Source of the DNA: a virus | Reading direction: 5' to 3' (one strand) | Length of the DNA stretch: 20,516 nucleotides | Virus record (IMG/VR): IMGVR_UViG_3300037189_010336 | Coordinates: 1-20,516 of that record | In this document: positions 15,297 through 20,487 of the stretch, one piece after another | Position numbering within the stretch: the stretch's first letter is position 1 | Layout: each line of letters begins with the position of its first letter | Notes under the pieces: generated by a model | What the model was told of the DNA's origin: nothing | Databases searched by the model: none | What the model saw: only the letters and a program-made list of their open reading frames with translations | Program-made: the position numbers and the translations under genes

Positions 15297-15733
15297 TGGC
15301 TGATGCTGGTGTTAAAAAGGTAATTATTAAAAAAGAAGATCTTCCAGCATTTCATGGAAATACACAACAGTATTCTGTTAGATATAGGATAGTCTCTGAA
15401 GACAAGAACAGATATTCTCACTGGTCTCCATACTATTCAGTTGCTGCGCCAACTGCACCTACAACAGAGTATTCCGCTACTGTAACTAATAGCACTATTA
15501 ATGTTGTTTGGTCAAAGCCAACGGGATCTGAAATAAAAAACTATTATGTTTATTTCAAGATAAATGGTGGTGCATGGACATATATTGCTGCAACAACATC
15601 TACTCAATTTTCAACACTACTACAAAACACTGTTTCCACTATACAGGTTGCCGTACAAGTTCCAACATATCCAAAGTCATACTTTGCATCAGCAGCATTA
15701 TTTACCTCTCCAGAAATAGAAGTAATGGTATAA
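15296..15733 (+). CDS. Fibronectin type III-like tail protein
   Basis: The 145-aa product has a central domain (about residues 50-145) with the strand pattern of a fibronectin type III fold: APTAPTTEYSATVTNSTINV, then VWSKPTGSEIKNYYVYFKI, a WTYIAATTSTQFSTLL stretch and a closing VAVQVPT segment. The tryptophan-proline and YYVY spacing fits that family. The N-terminal 45 residues (VKKVIIKKEDLPAF, RYRIVSEDKNRYSHWSP) read like an FN3-related leading strand set, so two partial domains are possible. FN3 domains are common as add-ons on phage tail proteins and are thought to aid surface attachment. The ATG overlaps the fibre gene stop by one base and has only a weak GGA upstream, so expression is probably by translational coupling. 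The stop TAA lies inside the TATAAT of the following putative promoter. Confidence 0.7.
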   Translation: MADAGVKKVIIKKEDLPAFHGNTQQYSVRYRIVSEDKNRYSHWSPYYSVAAPTAPTTEYSATVTNSTINVVWSKPTGSEIKNYYVYFKINGGAWTYIAATTSTQFSTLLQNTVSTIQVAVQVPTYPKSYFASAALFTSPEIEVMV

Positions 15734-15734
15734 T
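15726..15734 (+). promoter_or_regulatory. Putative extended -10 promoter for a leaderless transcript
   Basis: TGGTATAAT is an extended -10 element (TG-N-TATAAT). It ends 9 bases before the ATG at 15744, so a transcript starting at the usual 6-9 bases downstream would begin at or next to the start codon. No Shine-Dalgarno-like sequence precedes that ATG and the gene is not overlapped by its neighbour. I could not place a good -35 hexamer at 16-18 bases. TATAAT also occurs by chance in AT-rich DNA, so the support comes from its position. Confidence 0.4.
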
Positions 15735-15743
15735 AGAATAACT

Positions 15744-16187
15744 ATGGCAAAAATTCCACTTCCAGAAAGAGGTCAACCTCTAGATGTAACATATATTTCA
15801 CAACTTGCTCAGGCAGTTAATGAAATCTCATCAGATGTATCTTCAGCAACATATAAGTATACATCTGTAGACACACCAACTGCTGGAAGACAAAATGTCA
15901 AATCCTCTGAGGCAAGAGTAATTGGTGGATATGTAAATGTTATTAATAGTGGATCAATTACAGCAGGCGAAGAAAAATCATTTGTTTATGATTTCTCTGG
16001 AGAATTTAAGTATGCTCCTGTAGCAACTGCAACACCAATTAACATTGGAAATACGGTTGCTGGAAAAAATGTAACAGTAGTTCTTAAAAGTATAACTACC
16101 TCTGGAGTTGAGGGTATTGTTAGATTTAATACATCTGGAGATGTATCAATTGCTGTTAACCTAATAGTTATCGGCATACCAAACTAA
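15744..16187 (+). CDS. Tail fibre or tip accessory protein, possible H-type lectin-like domain
   Basis: This 147-aa protein starts with KIPLPERGQPLDVTYISQLA, a helix-forming N-terminus that in structural proteins often mediates attachment. Its C-terminal half is beta-rich: KSFVYDFSGEFKYAPVATA, a NVTVVLKSITTSGVEGIVRF stretch and a closing AVNLIVIGIPN strand. The pattern of an aromatic-plus-proline turn, a V-x-V-x-L strand, then a T-T-S-G-V turn is reminiscent of H-type lectin (discoidin-II-like) domains, which bind sugars; I treat this as a tentative likeness. The gene is separated from the one before it by 10 bases and lacks a Shine-Dalgarno, and it appears to have its own -10 element. Its stop overlaps the zinc-ribbon gene by one base. 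It is probably a virion protein, the last of the tail module. Confidence 0.6.
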   Translation: MAKIPLPERGQPLDVTYISQLAQAVNEISSDVSSATYKYTSVDTPTAGRQNVKSSEARVIGGYVNVINSGSITAGEEKSFVYDFSGEFKYAPVATATPINIGNTVAGKNVTVVLKSITTSGVEGIVRFNTSGDVSIAVNLIVIGIPN

Positions 16188-16378: not shown

Positions 16379-16866
16379 TTACAGGCAATAAAAAAGTTTG
16401 GTTTCTTAATGGAGACCTAGTTAGAATTCATCATCTAAATAAATCCAATGGAATTATGTCTGTTTATAATATTACAAAAGATCAAATTGAAAGTTGTTTA
16501 ATTAATGATTTTAAAAAGAAAAGAGAACGAGCATATACAGTTGGAGAGACTGCTGATTTAGTTAATCGTCATAAAAAATATATGCCATCATTAATGAAGC
16601 GTGGTGTAATACCTTTTCCAATGGGTTCACAAAAAGGTGGTGCAAGAGGTTTTCGTGTAAGATCATATTACTCTGAATCACAAGTAAAAGAGATACGTGA
16701 TATACTTGCTTCATATCATATGGGTAGACCACGCAAAGATAAATTAATAACAAATGATATTACGCCCAGCAAGCAAGAGTTGACAAGAAGAATGGGCGAT
16801 GGTATACTTACATATACGAGAACAGAAGATGGACGATTTATTCCAGTGTGGAGTGAATCTATTTAA
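16324..16866 (+). CDS. MerR/excisionase-like helix-turn-helix DNA-binding protein
   Basis: Starting at ATG 16324 the protein has 180 aa. Around residues 60-110 it has a winged helix-turn-helix of the MerR/excisionase type: AYTVGETADLVNRHKKYM (helix, turn, helix), a basic wing VIPFPMGSQKGGARGFRV, then YYSESQVKEIRDIL. It is followed by a basic RPRKDK stretch that could contact the DNA minor groove. The N-terminal 55 residues include VWFLNGDLVRIHHLN, a small beta-rich region whose role I do not know. Such proteins are sequence-specific transcription regulators or DNA-architectural factors. It could control the switch between tail and replication transcription, but that is inference. A longer version from the TTG at 16264 would add 20 residues lacking family character. 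The stop is followed after 13 bases by the next gene. Confidence 0.7.
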   Translation: MAVKKGTIASEGYNVLPVITGNKKVWFLNGDLVRIHHLNKSNGIMSVYNITKDQIESCLINDFKKKRERAYTVGETADLVNRHKKYMPSLMKRGVIPFPMGSQKGGARGFRVRSYYSESQVKEIRDILASYHMGRPRKDKLITNDITPSKQELTRRMGDGILTYTRTEDGRFIPVWSESI

Positions 16867-17086: not shown

Positions 17087-17394
17087 TGGCAGAACGCAAA
17101 GACCGCATGGCTTTGCTTTCAAGATACAGCAAGTATCACACCGCAAGGTATGAATCAAAGCCATCTCTAAACTTAAATGTTGAGCAGTGGGCATCTGATG
17201 CCCTTGTTGAATCATACACATTGCCAGGATGCTACGATATACTTGAATATTACTTTTCAGTTGCAGAGAATCCTTCGTGGAACTACTTTGCATACAATGC
17301 AGAAAAAATATTGCAGGCACAAAAAGATAAGAAGAAGGATGATGAAGAAAGAGCAGAACGTAGACGAATGGCAAAGGAGTGGCTAAGTGAATAA
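17086..17394 (+). CDS. Small basic/acidic protein preceding the helicase, candidate helicase accessory
   Basis: This 102-aa protein has a basic N-terminus (AERKDRMALLSRYSKYHTARY), a central helical part with WASDALVESYTLPGCYDILE and WNYFAYNAEKIL, and a highly charged C-terminal helix of Lys, Asp, Glu and Arg residues. The aromatic and tryptophan positions look constrained, which suggests a folded protein. I do not recognise a named family. It overlaps the helicase start by 8 bases, so the two are translated together. In many phages the gene beside the DnaB-type helicase encodes its loader, and the all-helical, charged character fits, so this is a candidate loader or adaptor. That is inference and untested here. 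The ATG overlaps the preceding TAA by one base and has no nearby Shine-Dalgarno. Confidence 0.6.
   Translation: MAERKDRMALLSRYSKYHTARYESKPSLNLNVEQWASDALVESYTLPGCYDILEYYFSVAENPSWNYFAYNAEKILQAQKDKKKDDEERAERRRMAKEWLSE
17374..17379 (+). promoter_or_regulatory. Shine-Dalgarno deciding a GTG start for the helicase
   Basis: AAGGAG lies 7 bases before the GTG at 17387, an ideal spacing, and sits inside the 3' end of the preceding gene. It supports GTG as the helicase initiation codon. Confidence 0.75.
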
Positions 17395-18607
17395 TACAGA
17401 AGCAAAGGTAATCTCAGCAGTCCTTAATGATAAGCAGGTCCATGTTCTACTTCAGGCAAACATCGATAACCTACTAAGAACCCATAACGATGTCTGGGAG
17501 TTTATTAGAAATTACTTTGAGCATAATAGTGCTGTTCCACCAATGAATCTAGTCATTGATAAATTTAGAGATTTTCAACCAGTCGATGGAGTTGGTGCAA
17601 CAAAGCATCACCTTGAAGAATTACAAACAGAATATTTAACTGATAGCCTTAAGGATATCTTACGGTCTGCTGCAGGAGTTGTTCAGCAGGGTGAAGGCAA
17701 TAAAGCACTAGAAGATCTTATCACCCAGACTTCAGAACTAAAAAAGAATACATCTGCAATTCGTGATATTGATGTAACAGATTTAGAATCAGCCATTGCA
17801 TACTTTGAAAATCTTAAGGTGCAACAGGCAGCAGGCCATGTTGGAATTAAAACCAATCTGCCAGGGTTTGATAATTATCTTCCTTCTGGAATTATGCCAG
17901 GGCAGTTAGGAGTCTTTCTAGCATATCCAGGTATCGGAAAGTCATGGATGGCTCTATACTTTGCTGTACAGGCCTGGAAACAAGGCAAGACACCACTTGT
18001 AATCTCCCTTGAAATGAGTGAGACAGAAGTTCGTAACCGTGTATTTACCATTATGGGTGAGGGTCTTTGGTCTCATAGAAAGTTATCAAACGGAGATGTT
18101 GAACTTGATACATTAAAGGCTTGGCATGCAAAGCATCTGCAAGGCAAACCAGAATTTCACATTATCTCTAATGATCAAGGTGGAGAGATTAACCCATCCG
18201 TTCTTCGTGGAAAAATCGATCAGTATAAGCCAGATTTTGTAATCGTTGACTACCTTCAGTTAATGTCACCAAACCAAAAGTCAGATAATGAAACTGTGCG
18301 AATGAAGAACCTTTCACGAGAACTCAAACTAATGGCTATTGGTGAAGAAGTCCCAATCATTGCTATTTCATCAGCAACACCTGATGACGCTAATGATTTA
18401 ACAAGCGTTCCAACACTTGGTCAAACATCTTGGTCTAGACAGATTGCCTACGATGCTGACTGGGTTATTGCACTAGGCCGTGCACAAAATAGCGATGTCA
18501 TTGAGTGTGCCTTTAGAAAGAACCGTAACGGATTTATGGGTGATTTCCTTGTTCAAGTTGACTTTGACAAGGGATATTACAGATATAAAGATTTTGAAGA
18601 TAAGTAG
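17387..18607 (+). CDS. DnaB-family replicative DNA helicase
   Basis: The 406-aa protein is a RecA-fold ring helicase that unwinds the replication fork using NTP. An N-terminal helical domain (about residues 1-130) precedes the motor. The Walker A motif is AYPGIGKS at 179-186 with the catalytic lysine K185. The activating glutamate is E209 in SLEMS. Walker B is IVDYLQL with D288. Near the C-terminus, DADWVIAL and FRKNRNG match the later DnaB motifs, the arginines of FRKNRNG fitting the intersubunit finger. The usual motif-H3 glutamine (S-Q in classic DnaB) appears to be replaced: the sequence there is AISSATPDD. The length is slightly short of bacterial DnaB. The GTG start overlaps the preceding gene by 8 bases and has AAGGAG upstream. 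It should work with the primase and SSB encoded just downstream. The family assignment is secure. Confidence 0.93.
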   Translation: MNNTEAKVISAVLNDKQVHVLLQANIDNLLRTHNDVWEFIRNYFEHNSAVPPMNLVIDKFRDFQPVDGVGATKHHLEELQTEYLTDSLKDILRSAAGVVQQGEGNKALEDLITQTSELKKNTSAIRDIDVTDLESAIAYFENLKVQQAAGHVGIKTNLPGFDNYLPSGIMPGQLGVFLAYPGIGKSWMALYFAVQAWKQGKTPLVISLEMSETEVRNRVFTIMGEGLWSHRKLSNGDVELDTLKAWHAKHLQGKPEFHIISNDQGGEINPSVLRGKIDQYKPDFVIVDYLQLMSPNQKSDNETVRMKNLSRELKLMAIGEEVPIIAISSATPDDANDLTSVPTLGQTSWSRQIAYDADWVIALGRAQNSDVIECAFRKNRNGFMGDFLVQVDFDKGYYRYKDFEDK

Positions 18608-18608
18608 G

Positions 18609-18614
18609 TATAAT
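18609..18614 (+). promoter_or_regulatory. Putative -10 promoter for a leaderless transcript
   Basis: TATAAT, preceded by GG, ends 7 bases before the ATG at 18622, which would place the transcription start at about the A of that ATG. No Shine-Dalgarno is present at a normal distance and the gene is not overlapped by the helicase gene. I found no clear -35 at standard spacing. It matches the GG-TATAAT-A context of the element at 15726-15734. Confidence 0.45.
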
Positions 18615-18621
18615 ATGTTAC

Positions 18622-18948
18622 ATGGCGAACTATCACCACAAGCCTATCAAGAAGTTCAATTTGAGCGGAGTTATCCACGATGAATCTGCACTTGGTAGAC
18701 TTAAAATGGAATATATTAGACTCCTTGAGTCTGAGATGCGCCTGTCTGGATATGTTCCAAGGCTTGACATTGTTCCAGATTTTACGGTAGACTATAACGA
18801 GAAGAAAAAATATTTTGAATTTGAATTAACAGTACATGGTATACATACAGGGAGAAAACAGAGCGAATGGATAGAGGGAATAGACGGTACCAAAGCAATC
18901 TATACACAAAAGAGCAAATCAAAAGAGTCCTTACGGGAACAGGTGTAA
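18622..18948 (+). CDS. Small conserved-looking protein between helicase and primase, function unknown
   Basis: The 108-aa protein has a His/Lys-rich N-terminus (HHKPIKKFNLSG), a helical middle with ALGRLKMEYIRLLESEMRL, a beta region (RLDIVPDFTVDYNEKKKYFE, then FELTVHGIHTGRK), and a basic C-terminus. The DFTVDYN and FEFELTVHGI strands look constrained. I do not recognise a family and see no catalytic motif. Its last 82 bases overlap the primase gene in another frame. It begins after a 14-base gap that holds the putative -10 element and has no good Shine-Dalgarno, so it may head a leaderless transcript for the primase segment. A replication accessory role is suggested only by its place between helicase and primase. 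An ATG at 18615 in another frame opens only a short ORF and is not favoured. Confidence 0.65.
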   Translation: MANYHHKPIKKFNLSGVIHDESALGRLKMEYIRLLESEMRLSGYVPRLDIVPDFTVDYNEKKKYFEFELTVHGIHTGRKQSEWIEGIDGTKAIYTQKSKSKESLREQV

Positions 18949-19811
18949 CGATTGAGTCTGAGATTGATTCAGACTATATAATTTTTTGTCCATACCATAA
19001 TAATAATAGAACCCCTGCAGGAGAAATAGATAAGTTTAATGGAACATTTTTTTGCTTTTCTTGTCAGAAAGTTGCAGACCTAGTAGAGTTTACAATGCAT
19101 ATGTCTGGTCGTACATATTTTGAGTCCATAAGATTTATTAAAAGCAAAGAAACAGAATCTGATATTACAAAAGAAGTCAATAAACAATTATTTGAAAAGC
19201 CTGAGTTTGTTCCATTCGATGAATTAATTTTAAAAAGACTTAACAATAATCTTAACACATCAGAAAGAGCAAAGGATTATTTTACTTATAGAAAAATATC
19301 CTTAGCATCTTGGTCAAAGTTTTCTTTAGGGTATTCAGAAAAACAAGATATGGTTACTGTGCCAGTTCATAGTCCAGATGGAATGCCAGTAGGATTTGTT
19401 GGTAGATCAATTGAGGGCAAAGAATTTAAAAATACTCCAGGTCTTCCAAAAGCAAAGACTTTATTTAATTTGTACAGAGTAAAGACAGCAGACAAGGTTT
19501 ATGTAGTGGAATCATCATTTGATGCTATCCGCTTAGATCAAGTAGGCTTTCCAGCAGTTGCAACGCTTGGTGCTAATGTATCAAACACACAGATAGAATT
19601 GCTTCAAAAGTATTTCAATAACATTATAGTTATTGCAGATAATGATGAAGCGGGAGGAAACATGAAAACTAAGATAATTGAAAAACTTGGTTCTCGTGTG
19701 TCCGTTATAAAACTAAATAAACAATACAAAGATATAGGCGATATGGACGATAAGTCAATTCAAGAACTGGACTTTCAGTTTGACAAATCAATACAGTCTA
19801 TGCTAAACTAA
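18867..19811 (+). CDS. DnaG-type primase (zinc finger plus TOPRIM)
   Basis: The 314-aa protein makes RNA primers for lagging-strand synthesis. Its N-terminus has a CHC2-like zinc finger: C41-P-Y-H44, then after a short beta-hairpin C63-F-S-C66. The middle is a DnaG-like catalytic segment with FSLGYSEKQDMVTVPVHSPD and GFVGRSIEGKEFKNTPG. The TOPRIM core follows: E215 in YVVESSFDAIRL and the metal-binding pair D258 and D260 in IADNDEAGG, plus GDMDD further on. It is much shorter than bacterial DnaG (near 600 aa) and ends soon after TOPRIM, so the C-terminal helicase-binding domain is absent. No other in-frame ATG, GTG or TTG lies nearby, so ATG 18867 is the start; it lies within the preceding gene. 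A purine-rich GGGAG at 18850-18854 is 12 bases upstream, rather far for a ribosome binding site, so coupling is likely. Arginines here are mostly AGA. Confidence 0.93.
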   Translation: MDRGNRRYQSNLYTKEQIKRVLTGTGVTIESEIDSDYIIFCPYHNNNRTPAGEIDKFNGTFFCFSCQKVADLVEFTMHMSGRTYFESIRFIKSKETESDITKEVNKQLFEKPEFVPFDELILKRLNNNLNTSERAKDYFTYRKISLASWSKFSLGYSEKQDMVTVPVHSPDGMPVGFVGRSIEGKEFKNTPGLPKAKTLFNLYRVKTADKVYVVESSFDAIRLDQVGFPAVATLGANVSNTQIELLQKYFNNIIVIADNDEAGGNMKTKIIEKLGSRVSVIKLNKQYKDIGDMDDKSIQELDFQFDKSIQSMLN

Positions 19812-19833: not shown

Positions 19834-20487
19834 ATGAGCGTAATTAAAGGACTAAAAGAAATCAATGCACTACTTGACAAGCCAAAGTTTGAAAGCACTG
19901 GGCAAAAGGTTAAGTGGGTAAAGTTGGCTGATGGACAATCAGCAAAGATCCGTTTCGTTGAGGAACTAGATCAAGATTCAGCAAACTACTCAGATGCTCG
20001 TGGGCTATCTGTTGTAGTTGCAGAACACACTAATCCAAAGGATTATAAGCGCAAGGCTGCATGTACACAAGAATCAGAAGGTCGTTGCTTTGGTTGTGAG
20101 ATGGATCGCAAGGAACCAAAGAGTGGCTGGAGAGCACGTATGCGTTTTTATTGCAACGTACTAATTAATGATGGTACAGAAGACCCATACATTGCTGTAT
20201 GGTCACAGGGTATCTCAAAGCAATCAGCATTCAATAACATTCGTGAGTATGCACTTGATACAGGTAGCATCTCAAACCTTGAGTGGAAGTTAAAGCGTAA
20301 TGGTCAGGGAACTGAAACTAGTTACACTCTTCTTCCAAGCAAGCCAGACTCAGAGCCATTCAATTGGGATGGTTTTGAATTTTTCAACCTAGAAAAGGTT
20401 GTTCGTGAAGTTGTGTATCCAGAGCAAGAAGCATTCTACTTTGGATTCGATACACCTTCTGTTACCAGCACAAACATCGACTGGTAA
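19834..20487 (+). CDS. Single-stranded DNA-binding protein, gp32-like zinc site
   Basis: The 217-aa protein probably coats single-stranded DNA at the fork. An N-terminal basic helix (about residues 1-20) precedes a beta-rich core with VKWVKLADGQSAKIRFVEEL, a G-Q-x-A-x-I-R-F arrangement like T4 gp32. H65, C77, C85 and C88 then give a H-x11-C-x7-C-x2-C site; T4 gp32 has H64-x12-C77-x9-C87-x2-C90, so the ligand order and positions nearly coincide. Further strands follow, including RMRFYCNVLINDG and YIAVWSQGI. It is shorter than gp32 (about 300 aa) and ends FDTPSVTSTNIDW, so the long acidic tail of gp32 is largely missing. Arginines are almost all CGT or CGC (10 of 11), unlike the AGA-rich primase, and there is a strong Shine-Dalgarno, both suggesting high expression. 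The SSB role is inferred from the zinc site, core pattern and replication context. Confidence 0.75.
   Translation: MSVIKGLKEINALLDKPKFESTGQKVKWVKLADGQSAKIRFVEELDQDSANYSDARGLSVVVAEHTNPKDYKRKAACTQESEGRCFGCEMDRKEPKSGWRARMRFYCNVLINDGTEDPYIAVWSQGISKQSAFNNIREYALDTGSISNLEWKLKRNGQGTETSYTLLPSKPDSEPFNWDGFEFFNLEKVVREVVYPEQEAFYFGFDTPSVTSTNIDW

Follow-up and report, generated by a model that had tools for sequence, protein, structure and literature searches.

A conserved TATAAT element upstream of the helicase-primase spacer gene as a candidate leaderless promoter in a group of probable actinophages

Leaderless genes of Actinobacteria and the organization of the locus

More than 20% of genes in Actinobacteria are leaderless, with a box located about 12 bp upstream of the start (PMC3160421), and for mycobacteria it was found that an RTG at +1 suffices (PMC4633059). 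An individual example is recX of Mycobacterium tuberculosis: its promoter lies inside recA, and transcription begins at the A of the recX ATG (PMC3062782). Among phages, gene 90 of mycobacteriophage Adephagia is predicted to be leaderless, with a SigA-like promoter at the start codon (PMC11373665).

The TATAAT element described here precedes the gene positioned between those encoding a DnaB-like helicase and a DNA primase, and shares features with each of these systems. As for recX, the putative promoter falls within the 3' end of a preceding gene of DNA metabolism in an actinobacterial setting, transcription is predicted to start at the A of the ATG of the next gene, and the downstream gene would also be co-transcribed. 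Yet, the recX start was mapped and its -10 varies even from one mycobacterium to another, while the hexamer studied here does not vary within a deep clade of viruses and the start is predicted; the genes also differ, and a virus takes the place of the host. Similar to TA-led genes (PMC3160421, PMC4633059), TANNNT/TATAAT is found ~12 bp upstream of an ATG/GTG start devoid of a Shine-Dalgarno (SD) sequence, and a TG peak precedes the box, as in low-GC genomes. In contrast to those chromosomal surveys, our data concern phage genomes, in which the exact TATAAT is enriched instead of the general TANNNT. Adephagia gene 90 is likewise an actinophage gene with predicted transcription from its start codon, but represents a single case from the toxin-antitoxin pair of a temperate phage of another group, with no conservation series. 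Finally, the order helicase, phrog_17515-type gene, primase, SSB is shared with Stanwilliamsviridae phages of Streptomyces (Bmoc, Jada, Gilson), which form a separate clade and show 38–42% protein identity. These phages (45–49% GC) have no TATAAT at this junction, where the stop of the helicase gene overlaps or directly adjoins the start of the spacer gene.

The window, i.e., the whole 20.5-kb fragment of a viral record analysed here (36% GC), carries tail genes at the left and a replication block at the right (Table 1). The spacer and primase genes overlap by 82 nt. The AlphaFold model of the spacer protein is confident (pLDDT 87.8), and its fold gave no match with E<=0.001 in the PDB. The gene encoding the single-strand-binding protein (SSB) serves as a local control: in 28/28 listed upstream haplotypes it is preceded by an AAGGAG-type SD and has no TATAAT at 5–9 nt. 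A near-consensus leadered promoter, TTGACA-17-TATACT with TG ahead of the -10 (11/12 matches), is also found at 16780–16808, within the preceding coding sequence and 71 nt upstream of the SD-led start 16880.

Table 1. Features of the window relevant to the candidate promoters
Feature	Coordinates	Strand	Remarks
TATAAT of the companion element (TGGTATAAT)	15729..15734	+	9-nt gap to ATG 15744
147-aa gene downstream of the companion element	15744..16187	+	ORF
DnaB-like helicase gene, upstream	17387..18607	+	PF03796 E=2.6e-28; stop codon overlaps the first G of the element
GG preceding the hexamer	18607..18608	+	first G also closes the helicase TAG
TATAAT, proposed -10 of the candidate leaderless promoter	18609..18614	+	invariant in all environmental relatives, 5–7 nt from the start codon
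Predicted transcript start, A of ATG	18622..18622	+	18621–18622 inside expected spacing; inferred from the -10-to-start distance
Helicase-primase spacer gene, 108 aa	18622..18948	+	phrog_17515 E=4.9e-21
DNA primase gene	18867..19811	+	Toprim_2 E=1.9e-14, phrog_47 E=5e-52
SSB gene, SD-led internal control	19834..20487	+	phrog_9721 E=4e-40

The helicase stop codon TAG (18605–18607), whose G is the first of the GG, is followed by the second G, TATAAT, the gap ATGTTAC (18615–18621) and the ATG of the spacer gene. The coordinates and spacing given in the first-pass annotation, a TATAAT 7 nt upstream of this ATG with no SD, are borne out by the sequence: no SD is present at 18605–18619, as in TA-led genes. 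The first T of the hexamer lies 13 nt from the ATG (11–13 nt across all environmental relatives), at the position of the -10 box in TA-led genes (about 10–12 bp upstream of the start codon). The start is ATG or GTG in all relatives, and H6, K10 and F12 straight after it are invariant. Upstream of the hexamer we found no TTGACA-like -35 at 16–18 nt (the hexamer at 17 nt is TAAAGA), and the TGn of an extended -10 is without its T, as AGG stands there instead. Both elements are helpful for leaderless (TA-led) genes, yet the definition does not require either. In a consensus promoter scan of this region, sites were no more numerous than in shuffled sequences.

TATAAT matches the -10 consensus of bacterial sigma-70, and we propose that the hexamer at 18609–18614 is very probably a -10-type promoter, probably read by host SigA-type RNA polymerase, from which the spacer gene and the primase gene overlapping it would be expressed as a leaderless mRNA. 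RNA polymerase carrying a factor of the sigma-70 family, in all likelihood the primary, SigA-type one of the host, would open the DNA at TATAAT, just where the helicase gene ends. With a gap of 6 nt (5–7) the transcript start falls on the start codon; the gap of 7 in the window puts the A of the ATG one base beyond the commonest spacing, so that RNA is expected to begin at this A or within about a base of it. Such an mRNA would possess neither a leader nor an SD, and would be translated by 70S ribosomes through the start-codon-first route, which is common in Actinobacteria. By read-through, the same transcript would carry the primase gene; this internal promoter may thus supply the spacer protein and primase independently of the helicase transcript.

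Conservation of the element among relatives of the spacer gene

Relatives were collected from IMG/VR in one scan with the spacer protein, followed by two more scans with alignments reaching ~38–42% identity. In the first scan, 80/80 loci possess TATAAT 5 or 7 nt upstream of the start. Over all three scans the hexamer is found 5, 6 or 7 nt from ATG/GTG in 227/239 loci, a count in which some contigs appear more than once and related sequences are not independent samples. When grouped by protein identity, 33/43 clusters at 90% and 5/7 at 70% have TATAAT at 5–7 nt. All ten 90%-identity clusters devoid of it are of the Streptomyces type and form one clade (support 98/95), whose members have the helicase stop overlapping or directly adjoining the start that follows. 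The environmental relatives, down to ~38% protein identity, have the exact TATAAT at 5, 6 or 7 nt in every case examined.

Among 32 representatives all six bases of the hexamer are invariant, while positions -1 (T15 G14 A2 C1), -3 (A18 C9 T4 G1), -4 and +7 to +10 (e.g., +8: G16 T9 A7) vary; G occupies -2 in 23/32. The gap shifted repeatedly among 5, 6 and 7 on the tree. It follows that the hexamer and its rough distance to the start are kept and the surrounding sequence is not. The hexamer is also found in relatives of 42–45% GC, and four groups (L172, L217, L252, L277) with a different upstream sequence still possess it at gap 6.

The proximity of the helicase stop, only 14 nt from ATG 18622, raises the question of whether the hexamer is kept through its overlap with the helicase end, or serves the translation of a leadered mRNA made from a promoter further upstream, through coupling to the helicase stop or as an A/U-rich enhancer. 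In some relatives the helicase stop is indeed the TAA inside TATAAT (L017, TCG GTA TAA), and translational coupling without an SD is known. Yet, most haplotypes have the stop upstream of TATAAT, which leaves the hexamer non-coding. In eight loci (L035, L037, L038, L039, L040, L052, L055, L059) the helicase ends 620–647 nt upstream of TATAAT; L057 is cut off by the contig end. As read in L035 and L052, the insert is a gene of 190–196 codons that begins one base past the helicase stop (TAA T ATG) and has no TATAAT ahead of its own start. Its stop is followed by ~25–70 non-coding bases and then by TATAAT-ATGGT-ATG of the spacer gene. The element thus travels with the spacer gene and not with the helicase. 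The inserted gene (L035:3139-3711, L052:9339-9929) shows a weak match to PF09859 (Oxygenase-NA), with E from 0.0006 to 0.008, below cut-off.

Recurrence of TATAAT before gene starts and its relation to Shine-Dalgarno sequences

The window contains 14 TATAAT, most of them within genes. One of these belongs to the companion element upstream of gene 15744, whose product gave no match in Pfam and PHROG searches. The companion TATAAT is retained in 7/7 relatives at a gap of 5–9 nt. Its gap is bimodal among relatives, at 6 and 9 nt; at 9 nt the leader would be 2–3 nt, that is, the mRNA would be near-leaderless rather than leaderless. The first-pass annotation had attributed a shared GG-TATAAT-A context to the two sites. 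This description holds for the sites themselves: within the window, GGTATAATA occurs only at the companion (15727) and in the 18607 region. The loose TGnTATAAT nevertheless fits better (G at -2 in 69%), although the hexamer at 18609 is preceded by AGG, unlike that at 15729, which has TGG. As a specific motif GGTATAATA was rejected, since in several contigs the GKTATAATA count is no higher than that of the reversed control. The motif is better described as TATAAT, or loosely TGnTATAAT, at a constant distance from the start.

With such strings common in a 36% GC genome and 14 of them in the window, two might happen to precede gene starts. The probability of finding two or more at 5–9 nt from the 16 gene starts of the window by chance is ~0.0013, for a site chosen after the fact. 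The contigs of seven relatives (71–118 kb) were read in 20-kb pieces, with ORFs and starts called by a simple script. There, TATAAT is located 5–9 nt upstream of a candidate ATG in 90/922 genes, in 50 of them at exactly 6 nt. Other A3T3 hexamers precede 1 to 6 genes each at these distances, except ATAATT (20) and TTATAA (13), which are able to overlap TATAAT. Counted by gene family, TATAAT is found in 34/337, ATAATT in 17, TTATAA in 6 and the remaining hexamers in 1–5, and at a control distance of 35–39 nt TATAAT is found in 4 families. The enrichment upstream of start codons anticipated in the first-pass annotation is thus strongly confirmed over fuller genomes (34 families versus about 3 in controls). 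Four additional, divergent contigs show the same peak, and the excess is seen in 11/11 environmental contigs, with P from 0.01 to 6e-11 each; in two Streptomyces phages the peak is weak (2 and 5 genes). The general TANNNT is not enriched in most contigs, in contrast to the full TATAAT. Chance, which retains a practically nil probability, is refuted by these genome-wide and comparative tests: the hexamer is exactly conserved despite changing flanks, peaks sharply at gap 6 relative to its permutations, and is present also at the higher GC contents noted above.

The elements precede structural, replication and uncharacterised genes alike, and 21/82 sites have a divergent neighbour gene. The same hexamer and spacing at genes unlinked to the helicase also speak against retention through the helicase end or as a coupling signal.

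Several individual genes may be mentioned here. A 532-aa tryptophan-halogenase-like gene of the 118-kb relative G001 (L084:16126-17724; phrog_2928 E=2e-101) has TATAAT 6 nt from its ATG. Each genome carries two or three paralogues of one family, phrog_1084 (in relatives, e.g., L086:12737-13174, L086:15824-16234 and L087:1377-1787), and almost all of them have TATAAT 6–9 nt from the start.

The first-pass annotation had also proposed that SD and TATAAT exclude each other at spaced starts. In its simple form this claim does not stand. An SD is found in 3/61 spaced starts with TATAAT at 5–9 nt versus 167/462 without it, but masking the same six positions in other genes lowers the SD frequency to 3.2%, against 4.9% observed. 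The exclusion is therefore geometry only, because TATAAT occupies the SD position; the five starts of the window were weak evidence as well, and partly circular. What stands is the relation to distance and the switch between orthologues. An SD accompanies 2/93 starts (2%) with TATAAT at 5–9 nt and 45/61 (74%) with TATAAT at 15–30 nt (P=9e-23), compared with 177/489 (36%) of starts without TATAAT. The reappearance of the SD once the hexamer lies ~15–30 nt away fits a promoter, not a translation signal, and, taken with the insert loci and the unlinked genes, leaves retention through the helicase end or a translational role very unlikely. In the relatives' contigs L083-L120 and L284-L300, a weaker second set of TATAAT was seen 15–30 nt from starts, mostly with an SD between. 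We regard this set as short-leader promoters of the same type.

Orthologues of gene 15744 show both arrangements. In 70/80 loci TATAAT is positioned at gap 5–10 with no SD, while in the other 10/80 (five haplotypes) it is ~15–16 nt away, with an AGGAG-type SD between, as in L366: TATAATTAAATAGGAGGAATACATG. Judged by these upstream regions, the orthologues switch between a leaderless-type and an SD-led architecture. One could extend this to a two-way start code operating genome-wide, in which an adjacent promoter would yield leaderless mRNAs from a fixed set of genes (~10% of gene families) and one at 15–30 nt SD-led mRNAs, the choice being selected as expression control during infection and orthologues being able to switch; we consider this extension rather doubtful.

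Host, probable reader of the candidate promoter and meaning for the phage group

As for the host, WhiB, an actinobacterial hallmark (PMC10202952), was detected in 6/7 of the relatives' contigs, five above cut-off, and among 14 control genomes only in C. glutamicum, which points to actinobacterial hosts. The nearest named relatives infect Streptomyces and Rhodococcus. Both lines of evidence place the presumed hosts in a group known to use leaderless genes. A helicase search of GTDB genomes was uninformative, with one 28% match to an archaeal MAG. Several tRNA genes (Asn, Asp, Arg, Glu, Ile, Met, Gly) are present in L084, L085, L093, L094, L095 and L096.

The sites taken as a group have no -35 consensus; about half carry TG one base upstream of the hexamer. 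Such a -10-only architecture, together with a single exact consensus kept across relatives and the strong strand bias of TGnTATAAT, would also suit a promoter of the late or middle class, like T4's TATAAATA, recognised by a polymerase that the phage encodes or modifies, with the starts forming a timed regulon. However, the hexamer is that of the bacterial sigma-70 consensus, a minority of sites display a clear TTGACA-17-TATAAT, and the elements are spread over genes of all the functional classes listed above. Moreover, neither sigma70 region 2 nor region 4 (Pfam) was found in the relatives' contigs, in a search that a divergent T4 gp55-like sigma would escape. A search for T7-type RNA polymerase matched no control and carries no weight. 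We accordingly give little credence to a phage-specific polymerase; with no recognisable phage sigma factor, the promoter is likely to be read by the primary sigma of the host. The leaderless promoter suggested in the first-pass annotation has survived confrontation with chance, AT-richness, coding constraint, altered gene order, altered spacing and genome-wide recurrence, its transcript start being predicted from sequence.

The kind of signal is known. Three aspects seem undescribed within the limited open-access literature that we searched: that one such promoter is deeply conserved in a clade of viruses, that it recurs ahead of roughly 10% of gene families, and that orthologues switch between leaderless and SD-led forms. 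Gene callers that score SD sequences misplace or miss leaderless starts, and an exact, positioned TATAAT can be used as a rule for placing starts in a large group of actinophages known only from uncultured material. Orthologues of gene 15744 offer natural pairs for comparing leaderless-type and SD-led modes in one gene. Retention of the putative leaderless start of the spacer gene over the whole divergence of the proteins argues for selection and not mere tolerance.
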